Assembly (NCBI RefSeq): GCF_016907715.1
Contig: NZ_JAFBCM010000001.1
Location: 5,890,001 to 5,954,000, forward strand
Reading direction: 5' to 3'
DNA: 64,000 bases
DNA from: Tenggerimyces flavus
GTDB taxonomy: Bacteria > Actinomycetota > Actinomycetes > Propionibacteriales > Actinopolymorphaceae
Position numbers and translations under genes: made by a program. The notes below the pieces were generated by a model. The model did no database searches and was not told the DNA's origin. It saw nothing but the letters and a program-made list of their open reading frames with translations. Below are positions 11,632 to 16,904 of the stretch, piece by piece; within the stretch, counting starts at the first letter, position 1, and each line of letters starts with the position of its first letter.

Positions 11632-12807
11632 ATGCCGAGGAGCCGGGCGACGACCGCAGCGCATCTGGAACGCGCCTCCGGCATGCTCGCCTCCGCGACG
11701 ATCGACCGGATGCAGGACCGGCTGGACTGGTTCCGCGGCATGAACCCGCAGGACCGCTCCTGGATCGGTCTGGTCGCGCAGACCTTCATCGCCGCGTTCG
11801 TCGCCTGGTTCCGCGATCCCGGTCCCGGTCCGATCGTCACCGCCGATGTGCTCGGTACGGCGCCGCGCGAGATCGCGCGCAAGGTGACCTTGCATCAGAC
11901 CGTCGAGATGATCCGGATCGGCATCGAGGTCGTCGAGGAGAAGGTCGTCGACATCGTCCCGAAGGACGACGTACCGACCGTCCGCGAGGCCGTGCTGCTC
12001 TACTCCCGCGAGATCGCGTTCGCCGCGGCCGCCGTGTACGCGCGGGCGGCCGAGCAGCGCGGTGCGTGGGACGCCCGGCTCGAGGCGTTGATCGTCGACT
12101 CGATCCTGCGTGGCGAGGCCGACGAGGCCATCCGGTCCAGAGCCGCCGCGCTCGGCTGGTCGGAGTCGAGCCAGGTGCTCGTCGTCGTCGGCCGTACTCC
12201 CGGCGGCGACACCGAGACGGTCGTCGCCCGCATGCGCCGGGACGGCCGACACGCCGGGCTCGACGTCCTCACCGGCGTCCAGGGCGACCGCATGGTCGTG
12301 ATCCTCGGAGGCGTGGAAGATCCACAAAAATCCGCCGGCCGCGTCGCCAGCCACTTCGGCCAGGGCGCGGTCGTCTTCGGAACGATCGTCGCCGACCTGC
12401 TCGCCGCCTCCACATCCGCGCGAACGGCGATCGCCGGTCTCCGCGCGGCCCCCGCTTGGCCCGACGCGCCGCGCCCAGTGGCGGCCGAGGACCTGCTCCC
12501 CGAGCGCGCGCTGTCCGGAGACGGCCACGCCCGGCGGCAGCTCGTACGCGACGTTTACGCCCCACTCGCGGCTACCGGACCGGTGTTGCTGGAGACGCTC
12601 GCCGCGTTCTTCGAGACCGGAGGCTCGGTCGAGGCGACCGCACGCCTGCTGTTCGTGCACGCCAACACCGTGCGTTACCGGCTCAGGCGCATCACCGAGC
12701 TGTCCGGTTACAGCCCGTCGAACCCGCGGCACGCCTACACCCTCCGGATCGCCCTCACGCTCGGCCGATTGCTCGCTCCGGAAGAACAGGCGCCCGAGGC
12801 GCGCTAG
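11632..12807 (+). CDS. fasR: FasR-like PucR-family regulator of fatty acid synthesis
   Basis: This 391-aa regulator ends in the PucR-type helix-turn-helix: TGGSVEATARLLFVHANTVRYRLRRI, around residues 333-360. The preceding portion is the divergent sensor region of this class. In Streptomyces coelicolor, FasR is a regulator of this type encoded directly before fabD that activates the fabDHPF operon. Here the gene is also immediately upstream and co-oriented with fabD, fabH, acpP and fabF. The symbol therefore rests on family plus position. Confidence 0.85.
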   Translation: MPRSRATTAAHLERASGMLASATIDRMQDRLDWFRGMNPQDRSWIGLVAQTFIAAFVAWFRDPGPGPIVTADVLGTAPREIARKVTLHQTVEMIRIGIEVVEEKVVDIVPKDDVPTVREAVLLYSREIAFAAAAVYARAAEQRGAWDARLEALIVDSILRGEADEAIRSRAAALGWSESSQVLVVVGRTPGGDTETVVARMRRDGRHAGLDVLTGVQGDRMVVILGGVEDPQKSAGRVASHFGQGAVVFGTIVADLLAASTSARTAIAGLRAAPAWPDAPRPVAAEDLLPERALSGDGHARRQLVRDVYAPLAATGPVLLETLAAFFETGGSVEATARLLFVHANTVRYRLRRITELSGYSPSNPRHAYTLRIALTLGRLLAPEEQAPEAR

Positions 12808-13056: not shown

Positions 13057-14259
13057 ATGCTGGTCGTCGTAGCGCCCGGGCAAGGGGCGCAAACCCCTGG
13101 ATTCCTCGAACCGTGGCTCGAGGACCCCACCTTTGCCGAACGTATGCGTTGGTTGTCGGCGGTTTGCGACATCGACCTCGTGCACTACGGCACCAAGGCC
13201 GACGCCGAGACGATCCGCAACACCGCCATCGCGCAGCCGCTGCTCGTGGCCTCCGGGCTCGTCGCGGCCCTCGCGCTGTTCCCCCATCCCTCCGCGTCCG
13301 CGTTCCGCCGGATCGACCTCGCCGCCGGCCACAGCGTCGGTGAGGTCACCGCGGCCGCCGGCGTCGGCGTGATCACCGCCGAGCAGGCGATGGTGTTCGT
13401 TCGCGAACGCGGCAAGGCGATGGCCGAGGCCGCCGCGAAGACCCCCACCGGGATGATGGCCGTCCTCGGCGGCGACCCCGAAGAGGTCCTCGACGCGATC
13501 GCGAAGCACGGCCTCACCGCCGCGAACAACAACGGTCCCGGCCAGGTCGTCGCCGCCGGCACGCTGGAGGACCTGGAGAAGTTCAGCGCGAACCCGCCCG
13601 CGAAGACCCGGCTCGTCCCGCTGCAGGTCGCCGGCGCGTTCCACACCCACTACGTCCACCACGCGGTCGAGCTGCTCGGCGGGTACGCCCGCGCGATCAG
13701 CACCCACGACCCCCGTACTCGGCTGCTGTCCAACCGCGACGGCCACGTCGTGCACAACGGCCGCGAGGTGCTCGACCGGATCGTCAAGCAGGTCAGCTCC
13801 CCCGTCCGCTGGGACCTGTGCATGCAGGCGATGCAGGACCTCGGCGTCACCGGCATGCTGGAGATCCCGCCCGCCGGCACGTTGACCGGCATCGCCCGGC
13901 GCGCGCTGCGCGGCGTCGAGACGTTCGCGCTCAAGACCCCGGACCAGCTCGACGACGCCCGCGCGTTCGTCGAGAAGCACGGTGAACGCAGCCCGCTGGA
14001 GGGCAACCCGACCTGGCGGCTGCTCGTGTCGCCGGTCAAGGGCACGTTCAGCGTGGCCCAAGACCACCCTTCTACCGGCACCGAGCTCCAACCCGGCGCT
14101 CTGGTCGGCAGCGTGCACAGCCTGCGGGACGACCTCCCCGTGGCGGCACCGCACGGAGGCACGATCGTGGAATGGCTCGTGGAGGACGGCGATCCCGTCT
14201 CACCGGGCCAACCCATCGTCCGGTTGCACCCGCATCCGGCCGGGGTGGGGACCCCGTGA
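13057..14259 (+). CDS. fabD: Malonyl-CoA:ACP transacylase with C-terminal biotinyl/lipoyl-like domain
   Basis: This 400-aa protein starts at ATG 13057 (MLVVVAPGQGAQTPG), matching FabD N termini. The transacylase domain covers about residues 1-300, with the nucleophile elbow GHSVGE (Ser93) and conserved FHTHYV (His). FabD normally ends near residue 310. Here residues of about 325-395 form an extra domain beginning LLVSPVKGTF that lines up with biotin carboxyl carrier domains through GGTIVEWLVEDGDPVSPGQP. At the attachment site SLRD replaces AMKM, so Arg357 stands where the modified lysine should be. It supplies malonyl-ACP for chain elongation. Its stop overlaps the fabH start (GTGA). Confidence 0.92.
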   Translation: MLVVVAPGQGAQTPGFLEPWLEDPTFAERMRWLSAVCDIDLVHYGTKADAETIRNTAIAQPLLVASGLVAALALFPHPSASAFRRIDLAAGHSVGEVTAAAGVGVITAEQAMVFVRERGKAMAEAAAKTPTGMMAVLGGDPEEVLDAIAKHGLTAANNNGPGQVVAAGTLEDLEKFSANPPAKTRLVPLQVAGAFHTHYVHHAVELLGGYARAISTHDPRTRLLSNRDGHVVHNGREVLDRIVKQVSSPVRWDLCMQAMQDLGVTGMLEIPPAGTLTGIARRALRGVETFALKTPDQLDDARAFVEKHGERSPLEGNPTWRLLVSPVKGTFSVAQDHPSTGTELQPGALVGSVHSLRDDLPVAAPHGGTIVEWLVEDGDPVSPGQPIVRLHPHPAGVGTP

Positions 14260-15254
14260 CGGCGGTGATCCGCCCGGTACGAGGAGCAGACAACGCCAAG
14301 ATCCTGGGCGTCGGTGGCTACCGCCCCGCCCGGGTCGTCCCCAACTCCGAGATCGTCGACCGGATCGACTCCTCCGACGAGTGGATCCGGACCCGGTCCG
14401 GGATCGTCAGCCGGCGCGTCGCCGGGCCTGAGGAGACCGTTCGCTGGATGGCCGTGCAGGCCGGCGGCAAGGCGCTCGCGTACGCGGGCATCTCCCCCGA
14501 CCAGATCGGCTGCGTCCTCATCTCGACCGTGTCGCACCTGATCCAGACGCCGGCGATCGCGCCGGCGATCGCGACCGACCTCGGCTCGCACGACGCCGCC
14601 GCGTTCGACATCGGCGCCGGCTGCGCGGGCTTCTGCTACGGCGTGGAGCTCGCCCAGGGCATGGTGCGGAACGGGTCCGCCGAGTACGTCCTCGTGATCG
14701 GCGTCGAACGGCTCTCCGACATCGCCAACCCCGACGACCGGACGACCGCGTTCCTGTTCGGCGACGGCGCGGGCGCGGCGGTCGTGGGTCCGTCGGACGA
14801 GCCGGGCATCGGACCGGTCGTCTGGGGCTCGGACGGCTCGCAGGACAAGACGATCGAGCAGCCGGTGGCGTGGGACGCCGCGATGGAAGAGGGCGCGTAC
14901 CCGTACCTCGTCATGCAGGGCAACGCGGTGTTCCGGTGGGCTTCGTACTCGATGGCGAAGGTCGCGCAGGAGGCGCTCGACCGCGCCGGAGTGGCGGCGG
15001 CCGACCTGGACGCGTTCATCCCGCACCAGGCCAACATGCGCATCACCGACGCGATGGTGAAGGCGCTGAAACTGCCCGAGCACGTGGTGATCGCGCGCGA
15101 CATCGCCGAGCAGGGCAACACGTCGGCGGCGTCGATCCCCTTGGCAATGGAGCGAATGCTGCAAACCGGCGAGGTGAGGAGCGGCGATACGGCGTTGCTC
15201 ATCGGGTTCGGCGCGGGGCTGGTCTATGCGGCCCAGGTCGTCACAATCCCCTAG
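14256..15254 (+). CDS. fabH: Beta-ketoacyl-ACP synthase III
   Basis: This 332-aa thiolase-fold enzyme starts FAS-II by condensing an acyl-CoA starter with malonyl-ACP. GTG 14256 overlaps the fabD stop. The triad is complete: Cys123 in GAGCAGF, His257 in IPHQAN and Asn288 in EQGNTSAAS. The DEWIRTRSGI segment near residue 43 is the CoA-binding tryptophan/arginine region. In actinobacteria the preferred starters are usually branched-chain acyl-CoAs; selectivity cannot be read directly here. Confidence 0.95.
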   Translation: MTAVIRPVRGADNAKILGVGGYRPARVVPNSEIVDRIDSSDEWIRTRSGIVSRRVAGPEETVRWMAVQAGGKALAYAGISPDQIGCVLISTVSHLIQTPAIAPAIATDLGSHDAAAFDIGAGCAGFCYGVELAQGMVRNGSAEYVLVIGVERLSDIANPDDRTTAFLFGDGAGAAVVGPSDEPGIGPVVWGSDGSQDKTIEQPVAWDAAMEEGAYPYLVMQGNAVFRWASYSMAKVAQEALDRAGVAAADLDAFIPHQANMRITDAMVKALKLPEHVVIARDIAEQGNTSAASIPLAMERMLQTGEVRSGDTALLIGFGAGLVYAAQVVTIP

Positions 15255-15328: not shown

Positions 15329-15574
15329 ATGGCCACCACCGAGGAGATCCGCGCCGGGCTCGCGGACATCGTGAACGAGGTCGCGGGAATCCCGACCGAG
15401 GACGTCCAGCTGGACAAGTCGTTCACCGACGACCTGGACGTCGACTCGCTGTCGATGGTCGAGGTCGTCGTCGCGGCTGAGGAGAAGTTCGGCGTGAAGA
15501 TCCCCGACGACGAGGTGAAGAACCTCAAGACCGTCGGCGACGCCGTCGCCTACATCGAGCGTTCGCAGGGCTAG
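15329..15574 (+). CDS. acpP: Acyl carrier protein
   Basis: This 81-aa acidic four-helix protein starts at ATG 15329 behind AAGGAGCACCAAGG. The phosphopantetheine site is Ser40 in DVDSLSM. PDDEVKNLKTVGDAVAYI forms the last helix. It carries the growing acyl chain between the Fab enzymes. The separation from fabH (74 bp) and fabF (91 bp) leaves room for its own translation signals, as expected for the most abundant product of the operon. Confidence 0.95.
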   Translation: MATTEEIRAGLADIVNEVAGIPTEDVQLDKSFTDDLDVDSLSMVEVVVAAEEKFGVKIPDDEVKNLKTVGDAVAYIERSQG

Positions 15575-15665: not shown

Positions 15666-16904
15666 ATGAGCACCAAGGTTGTCGTGACGGGCGTGGGGGC
15701 GACGACCCCTGCCGGCGGCGATGTTCCGTCGACGTGGAAGGGAATGCTCGACGGGCGCTCCTACGGCGGCAAGCTGACCGAGGAGGAGTTCTCGCTCCTC
15801 CCCTCGCGGATCGCCGCGCGCGCCGCGGTCGAGCCGGCCGAGGTCATGAAGCGGGTCGAGGCGCGCAAGCTCGACCGGTTCGAGCAGTTCGCGCTGATCG
15901 CCTCGCGGGAGGCGTGGCAGGACGCGGGCCTGTATGAGGCCGAGGTGCCGGGCGAGCGCATCGCGGTCTCGGTCGCGTCGGGCATCGGCGGCGTGATCAG
16001 CCTGCTGACCGCCTGGGACATGCTGAAGGAGAAGGGCCCCCGGCACGTCACCCCGTTCATGATCCCGATGATCATGCCGAACGGTGGCGCCGCCTGGGTG
16101 GGCCTGGAGTTCGGTGCGCAGGCCGCCGTGCAGACGCCGGTCGCCGCGTGTGCGTCCGGCAACGAGGCGATCCGGCACGGCGTGGAGCTGATCCGCGCGG
16201 GCAAGGCCGACGTGGCGCTCGTCGGTGGTGCCGAGGCGGCGATCCACCCGCTGCCGCTCGCGGCGTTCGGCGCGATGATGGCGGTCTCGCGGCGCAACGA
16301 CGACCCGGAGCACGCTTCGCGCCCGTTCGACAAGGGCCGCGACGGGTTCCTGCTCGGTGAGGGCGCGGGCATGCTCGTGCTGGAGAACGAGGAGACCGCG
16401 CGGGCCCGGGGCGCGCGGATCTACTGCGAGGTCGCGGGTACTGGCGCGTCCGGCGACGCGCATCACATCGTCGCGCCGCACCCGGAGGGCCGGGGCAACG
16501 CGGCGGCGATGCGTGAGGCGCTGAAGGACTCTCAGCTGACGCCGCAGGACATCGTGCACATCAACGCGCACGCGACGTCGACGCCGGTGGGCGACATCGC
16601 CGAGAACGTCGGCATCCGCGCGGTCTTCGGCGAGCACGCCTCGAAGATCGTCGTCACCGCGCCGAAGGGCGGCATCGGCCACCTGCTCGGCGCTGCCGGC
16701 GCGGTCGAGTCGATCGCCACGATCCTCGCGCTGCACCACCGCGTGGTGCCGCCGACGGTCAACCTCGAGGAGCAGGACGAGCAGATCGACCTCGACGTCG
16801 CGGTCAAGCCGCGCGAGCTCCCGGCGACCGGGCAGCTCGCCGCGATCAACAACTCGTTCGGCTTCGGCGGGCACAACCTGGTCATCGCGTTCCGTACGGT
16901 CTGA
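15666..16904 (+). CDS. fabF: Beta-ketoacyl-ACP synthase II
   Basis: This 412-aa elongating condensing enzyme starts at ATG 15666 behind GGAGGAGAT. Active-site residues are Cys162 in VAACASGNEA, His in NAHATSTPVGD and His in GIGHLLGAAGAVES. The C terminus NNSFGFGGHN is the usual gating loop. It extends acyl-ACP chains and completes the fabD-fabH-acpP-fabF order. The final base of its TGA is the first base of the following ATG. Confidence 0.95.
   Translation: MSTKVVVTGVGATTPAGGDVPSTWKGMLDGRSYGGKLTEEEFSLLPSRIAARAAVEPAEVMKRVEARKLDRFEQFALIASREAWQDAGLYEAEVPGERIAVSVASGIGGVISLLTAWDMLKEKGPRHVTPFMIPMIMPNGGAAWVGLEFGAQAAVQTPVAACASGNEAIRHGVELIRAGKADVALVGGAEAAIHPLPLAAFGAMMAVSRRNDDPEHASRPFDKGRDGFLLGEGAGMLVLENEETARARGARIYCEVAGTGASGDAHHIVAPHPEGRGNAAAMREALKDSQLTPQDIVHINAHATSTPVGDIAENVGIRAVFGEHASKIVVTAPKGGIGHLLGAAGAVESIATILALHHRVVPPTVNLEEQDEQIDLDVAVKPRELPATGQLAAINNSFGFGGHNLVIAFRTV

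Follow-up and report, generated by a model that had tools for sequence, protein, structure and literature searches.

Type II fatty-acid synthases are treated as sets of separate soluble enzymes that meet via the acyl carrier protein (ACP). In true biotin carboxyl carrier proteins (BCCPs) the tip of a hairpin bears the biotin that enters active sites, and barrel-sandwich domains that lack a carrier lysine form a known kind as well, to which we take those of CphZ, the aspartoacylase-type 3cdx, BesA and HlyD to belong. Searches of open-licence PMC papers turned up no description of such a tail beside the malonyl-CoA:ACP transacylase (FabD), and domain-architecture databases may already show the fusion with FabD. 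The S. coelicolor enzyme (1nm2) is a protein of 317 residues without a C-terminal domain. The FabD described here, which is encoded in a 64 kb window (the whole stretch of DNA that was analysed) from an 8.5 Mb single-contig genome, has a similar core but continues into a C-terminal barrel-sandwich domain.

The fabD gene occupies positions 13057–14259 (400 aa, stop codon included in the coordinates), its frame being open from the ATG at 13057 to the TGA at 14257–14259, and this gene and the fatty-acid synthesis genes that follow it all lie on the forward strand. The acyltransferase core (residues 1–308; 13057–13980) aligned with S. coelicolor MCAT 1nm2 at 54% identity over 309 columns (E 1.4e-42), and the match to this structure (TM 0.96 on the target) placed it in the acyltransferase fold. 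GHSVG, GAFHT and Arg118 are present, giving a Ser-His-Arg active site with Ser93, Arg118 and His196 at the catalytic-residue positions. These three residues, which we take to be the catalytic residues of the malonyltransferase, were unchanged in 244 FabDs from five groups, with one gap at Ser93 as the sole exception, and because they are kept so widely FabD itself is, on sequence grounds, an enzyme that stays active. The NCBIfam fabD model TIGR00128 scored the window FabD at 170.5 bits against an annotation threshold of 260.9, slightly below the score from the MdcH model (173.4 bits, cut-off 297.9), and all 52 members of set A2 matched both models.

Directly downstream, the tetranucleotide GTGA (14256–14259) forms a 4-nt overlap between the presumed fabH start and the fabD stop. 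Next come fabH (14256–15254, identified by a gene order as in related genomes), a gene for an ACP of 81 aa (15329–15574) and fabF (15666–16904), names that we assigned from the sequences. The order fabD-fabH-acp-fabF was found in the window and in all eleven loci of the window's class that were read (L286–L295, L300). Upstream of fabD lies a regulator-like gene (11632–12807), presumably of the PucR type, to which there were partial matches upstream of fabD at 4 of 23 loci (L286, L288, L291, L292), most of the 23 stopping short of this position.

Behind the core, a linker (residues 309–317; 13981–14007) of low model confidence (mean pLDDT 59 over residues 311–320) leads into a lysine-less biotinyl-type barrel-sandwich domain at residues 318–392 (14008–14232), as assigned by profile, predicted fold and structure comparison. 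A model of full-length FabD contained well-predicted domains and a weak linker (pTM 0.79), and the tail domain predicted alone, with 72 aligned sequences as input, reached a mean pLDDT of 90.1. Structurally, this isolated domain matched the E. coli AccB biotinyl domain 1bdo best (Foldseek E 4.2e-06; VIA-align Z 12.5, rmsd 1.9 over 74 residues), and further BCCPs came next. The original prediction, that FabD here is fused to a C-terminal biotinyl-like domain, is thus borne out, and structure prediction returned the barrel-sandwich hybrid on which that claim depended. The span that had been proposed for the domain, 14032–14247 (residues 326–397), does fall in the tail, but its boundaries differ from those of the whole domain given above.

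The window sequence scored higher with each of three Pfam profiles when the domain was taken alone than within FabD: 21.1 against 17.9 bits for PF00364, which just missed the cut-off of 22.1; 29.8 against 27.6 bits for PF13533 (cut-off 29.8); and 18.6 against 15.8 bits for PF13437 (HlyD / membrane-fusion adaptor), below the cut-off of 22.2. Among the family members, 53 of 54 matched PF00364 at E ≤ 0.01, and a profile built from all 54 matched 1o78, the BCCP of 1.3S transcarboxylase, with E 6e-15 for the whole sequence and 8e-10 for the best single stretch. The motifs VSPVKGTF and SLRD are present in the tail as described, SLRD (14119–14130) replacing AMKM, and Arg357 (codon CGG, 14125–14127) does stand where the modified lysine would be: its column, position 38 of the 54-member profile, falls on the lysine of AMKM in 1o78. 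Arg357 also occupies the column of the lipoyl attachment lysine (DKA/DKV), which is absent. As a control from the same genome, seven other PF00364 domains all have the lysine (AMKM, SMKM, TDKV or TAKA).

Family and class searches yielded 94 distinct homologues (from 104 loci before identical proteins were removed, two of them N-terminally cut), in which residue 357 was Arg in 82, Gln in four, Ser in three, Asp in two, and Thr, Gly and Ala in one each, with no Lys, counts that do not represent natural frequencies because the set was partly chosen for diversity. Named contigs supplied loci for 80 of 284 relatives; eight of these were incomplete or had other boundaries and were excluded, leaving 72 loci and 71 distinct proteins, of which 13 sequences overlapped with the first set. 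Here Arg was found in 70 and Gly in one (RNRGDS, with the Arg shifted by one place), again with no Lys. The survey of homologues therefore sided with the original prediction: the biotin-attachment lysine was absent from the hairpin site in every homologue of both sets (0/94 and 0/71), which rules out a chance mutation or sequencing error, and a wrong frame or non-coding tail is ruled out by the open frame together with the dN/dS values given below. Other parts of the domain are strongly conserved, with E372, G329 and G384 found in 94 of 94 homologues and W320, R321, W373 and R389 each retained by 90 to 92. Since the BCCP fold lacks its attachment lysine and the domain is kept under selection, the tail would not be a biotin carrier; indeed, as far as sequence can tell, the lysine-less tail is a carrier of neither biotin nor lipoyl, in agreement with the claim that it cannot carry biotin.

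Tailed FabDs had named hosts in Actinopolymorpha, Kribbella, Nocardioides, Jiangella, Phytoactinopolyspora, Knoellia and Microlunatus, and further hosts among MAGs labelled Nanopelagicales and Acidothermales. The domain was also borne by four contigs titled Bifidobacterium breve and one titled Rubrivirga (L142, L158, L166, L176, L192), titles that look wrong, and Kribbella jiaozuonensis had two domain loci on two scaffolds (L178, L179), reflecting either duplication or assembly overlap.

Of 394 genomes of the class, 356 gave a FabD match (E ≤ 1e-60) and at least 123 a domain match (E ≤ 2e-8), the latter being a lower bound because it comes from a one-sequence search that may miss divergent tails; the 123 count domain matches whether or not a FabD was seen in front, some of them (e.g. 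G303, G030) lying at contig ends. Many actinomycetes thus manage without the domain. Several genomes of the window's order (G033, G111, G122, G235 and others; family f2, genus g4) had no FabD match at E ≤ 1e-60, and G033 had none even at 1e-25; these genomes may use a type I synthase. Nineteen tail-less FabDs terminate shortly behind the helix in front of the linker, and a twentieth (L215) is truncated where its contig ends; families f15, f19 and f21 are among those without a tail. When 84 FabD cores (65 tailed and 19 tail-less) were placed on a tree, tail presence changed at least six times, compared with 17.4 times in shuffles; starred branches force three of the six changes. Gain and loss are generally inseparable on this tree because its root was not inferred; the tail-less cores L198, L201 and L196, which are nested among tailed ones, are most simply read as losses, and one tailed core (L107) is placed among tail-less cores.

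To the extent that rough estimates allow, the synonymous distances being 0.4–1.1, dN/dS was 0.16–0.28 for the linker and domain and 0.11–0.22 for the core (Nei-Gojobori with Jukes-Cantor, against eight rows of the window's family representing seven distinct relatives). The fabD DNA of L012, from genome G004 in the window's family, was identical to that of Actinopolymorpha rutila (L116), which would make the window's family that of Actinopolymorpha. These ratios indicate that the tail domain is under purifying selection and support the earlier suggestion that the fold was retained.

Three tail-less FabDs were compared with tailed relatives. In G052, from the window's order, the core was 61% identical to that of the window against 72–74% in four tailed relatives from its family, with FabH from the same operon at 64% against 63–65%. 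The corresponding values for G280 were 58% against 62–64% (core) and 58% against 56–59% (FabH), and for G270, where all values were lower, 58% against 71% (core), 55 against 60 (FabH), 62 against 82 (ACP) and 51 against 56 (FabF). About 120 core positions with a conservation of at least 90% among tailed FabDs served as reference; of these, 10 were altered in G052, 13 in G270 and 3 in G280, against 1 to 4 in six tailed relatives; three tailed members of the G052 family had one each, and the tailed relatives of G280 had 3 and 4, so that G280 is no higher. Judged by these figures, divergence that is specific to FabD and goes with absence of the tail is clear in G052 only (one of the three cases), slight in G280 and confounded in G270. 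The G052 pattern agrees with contact between tail and core, as one clear case and not as proof. Within the class, Trp32 (13150–13152) was found in 159 of 165 tailed FabDs against 5 of 19 tail-less ones, and both Trp32 and Pro78 (13288–13290) were nearly fixed in tailed and variable in untailed FabDs, which makes the pair a possible contact site, seen within the class alone. As a general docking signature the pair was dropped, having no association with the tail outside the class.

A search of 246 genomes from the phylum gave FabD-like matches at E ≤ 1e-25 in 128, of which 108 were outside the class; 48 of these 108 were left out of the reading of tails and loci. Fourteen of the 108 outside-class FabDs aligned over their full length, tail included, and these deep tails begin much as the window's does, with RLVVSP or a close variant, and are related to it in their closing half. 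In 11 of the 14 the part of the hairpin where the lysine would sit is deleted, and the other three have Ala there; given these deletions and the 12 of 94 homologues that differ at the site, Arg is not the essential feature. Arg357 is instead a feature of the window's class, and the pattern of a lysine-less domain beside FabD is wider. An earlier phylum search with the domain profile alone was dominated by true biotin proteins; it also contained tailed FabDs (e.g. G429, G474), as well as matches adjoining fabD in six genomes.

We read 46 outside-class fabD loci, six of them picked for an adjoining domain match and 40 taken regardless of the downstream gene. A separate small gene for a lysine-less domain lay just 3′ of fabD in 13 of the 46 (the six picked and 7 of the 40 unpicked, four of these seven being weak profile matches at 16.9–21.5 bits), and the letter at the site in the 13 domains was Ser, Gly, Asp, Pro, Arg or Tyr, never Lys. 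The stand-alone gene of L240 overlaps both fabD and fabH by 4 nt each and that of L242 overlaps fabD by 4 nt. Gene order in L241, L242 and L297 (from the same genome as L240) was fabD, domain, fabH, fabG-like SDR and acp; in L241 and L242 fabF comes next. The occurrence of tails and stand-alone genes in other classes of the phylum rules out an oddity of one class. A fabG-like SDR between fabH and acp was seen outside the class (L241, L242, L297, L299, L301–L305) and is missing at that place in the window operon.

Profile scores gave a mixed picture of the kinship between fused tails (set A), stand-alone domains (set S) and deep tails (set C). With a comparison set of 15 rows, comprising 14 lysine-bearing domains and L224, a misplaced stand-alone domain, the median scores from the S profile were 41.6 for A and 32.2 for the lysine set, and the C profile gave 40.5 for A, 29.7 for S and 14.2 for the lysine set; the class profile A1, however, scored the lysine set at 48.4, above S (33.9) and C (37.4). 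Because the profiles do not firmly separate them from true BCCPs, the stand-alone domains and deep tails may be separate recruitments. Their position and common N-terminal motif speak for a single family, and the simplest reading, although not proven, would be one old accessory domain that is either fused or free. Repeated recruitment of lysine-less BCCPs beside FabD, if true, would be equally notable.

On balance, we think that the FabD tail is a pseudo-BCCP with a structural and protein-docking role in the type II fatty-acid synthesis of actinobacteria. It is probably a docking or structural piece and not a carrier, because relatives keep such a domain, either fused or as a small adjoining gene. 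We propose that a biotinyl-type domain lost its biotin and was retained for structure and docking, and that it would pack onto the FabD surface, in-chain where the two are fused and as a small subunit where they are not. There it could keep FabD in register with its neighbours ACP and FabH and thereby bring malonyl transfer close to the first condensation. The Arg357 tip would be an elaboration made in the window's class, not the functional core. Domains that are fused in some genomes and encoded adjacently in others are a classical sign of physical partners, and the fusion in some genomes, the neighbouring or overlapping genes in others and the operon position would make FabD itself the most likely partner, with FabH possibly the next candidate. 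More tentatively, the lysine-less BCCP could be an old accessory subunit of the actinobacterial type II synthase, separate or fused, that physically ties malonyl transfer to its neighbours.

Other readings of the domain were weighed against this docking role. One is that it binds ACP or FabH, Arg357 touching the acidic ACP and malonyl-ACP being passed to FabH. Conservation of Arg357 (82/94 and 70/71) would fit, as would the stand-alone gene between fabD and fabH where it was read (L240, L241, L242); the site, however, was not Arg in 26 of 27 outside-class domains aligned, and the net charge of the domain is negative (window −4, median −2, n = 94). Net charge gave no support for ACP binding: with the window ACP at −12 both partners are acidic, so overall charge does not favour the interaction, and we regard this reading as unlikely. 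Docking of FabD on acyl-CoA carboxylase (carboxyltransferase or biotin carboxylase) through the BCCP mimic, channelling malonyl-CoA, which like docking of ACP had been put forward originally, draws on the AccB biotinyl domain as the closest fold and on the fact that malonyl-CoA is the FabD substrate. Yet no carboxylase gene was seen by eye among the ORFs at 9–20 kb of the window, and the tip that in a true BCCP would present the biotin is deleted in 11 of the 14 deep tails. The carboxylase epsilon subunit, present in 261 of 296 class genomes, tailed (G000, G070) and tail-less (G052, G025) alike, and with five tailed genomes among the misses listed, is near universal and thus non-discriminating; it was dropped as a correlate of the tail. 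We consider carboxylase docking distinctly unlikely.

The domain might also be a dispensable relic, an ex-carrier that aids only folding or solubility and is being lost. Purifying selection (dN/dS 0.16–0.28), residues that stay invariant over deep divergence and association with FabD in other classes too all argue against this, even though the core tree needs six changes in tail presence (84 rows, at least three forced) and S. coelicolor FabD (1nm2) and several families (f15, f19 and f21 among those read) manage without a tail; we rank it below carboxylase docking. That the tail carries another group elsewhere, for instance on Lys328 of PVKGT, is very improbable: this residue is Lys in 67 of 94 homologues but in the remaining 27 it is replaced by Ala, Gly, Ser, Arg or Val, it is not Lys in any of the 27 outside-class domains aligned, and it lies outside the hairpin that known ligases presumably use.

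If the docking reading is correct, the domain would provide a scaffold within a pathway that is usually drawn as freely diffusing enzymes. A conserved, non-catalytic domain of carrier fold on or beside FabD offers a handle on whether FabD sits in a complex, points to a component of an essential pathway in which actinobacterial groups differ, and illustrates how a carrier domain can be retained after loss of its cofactor site. Among known systems, the AccB biotinyl domain (1bdo) has its fold in common with the FabD tail, but the tail is without the biotin lysine and is fused to a malonyltransferase. The 1.3S transcarboxylase subunit (1o78/1dcz) is matched by profile, the tail again differing in its missing biotin lysine. 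CphZ, 3cdx and the membrane-fusion proteins BesA and HlyD have a similar fold but other hosts and functions, with no FabD partner.
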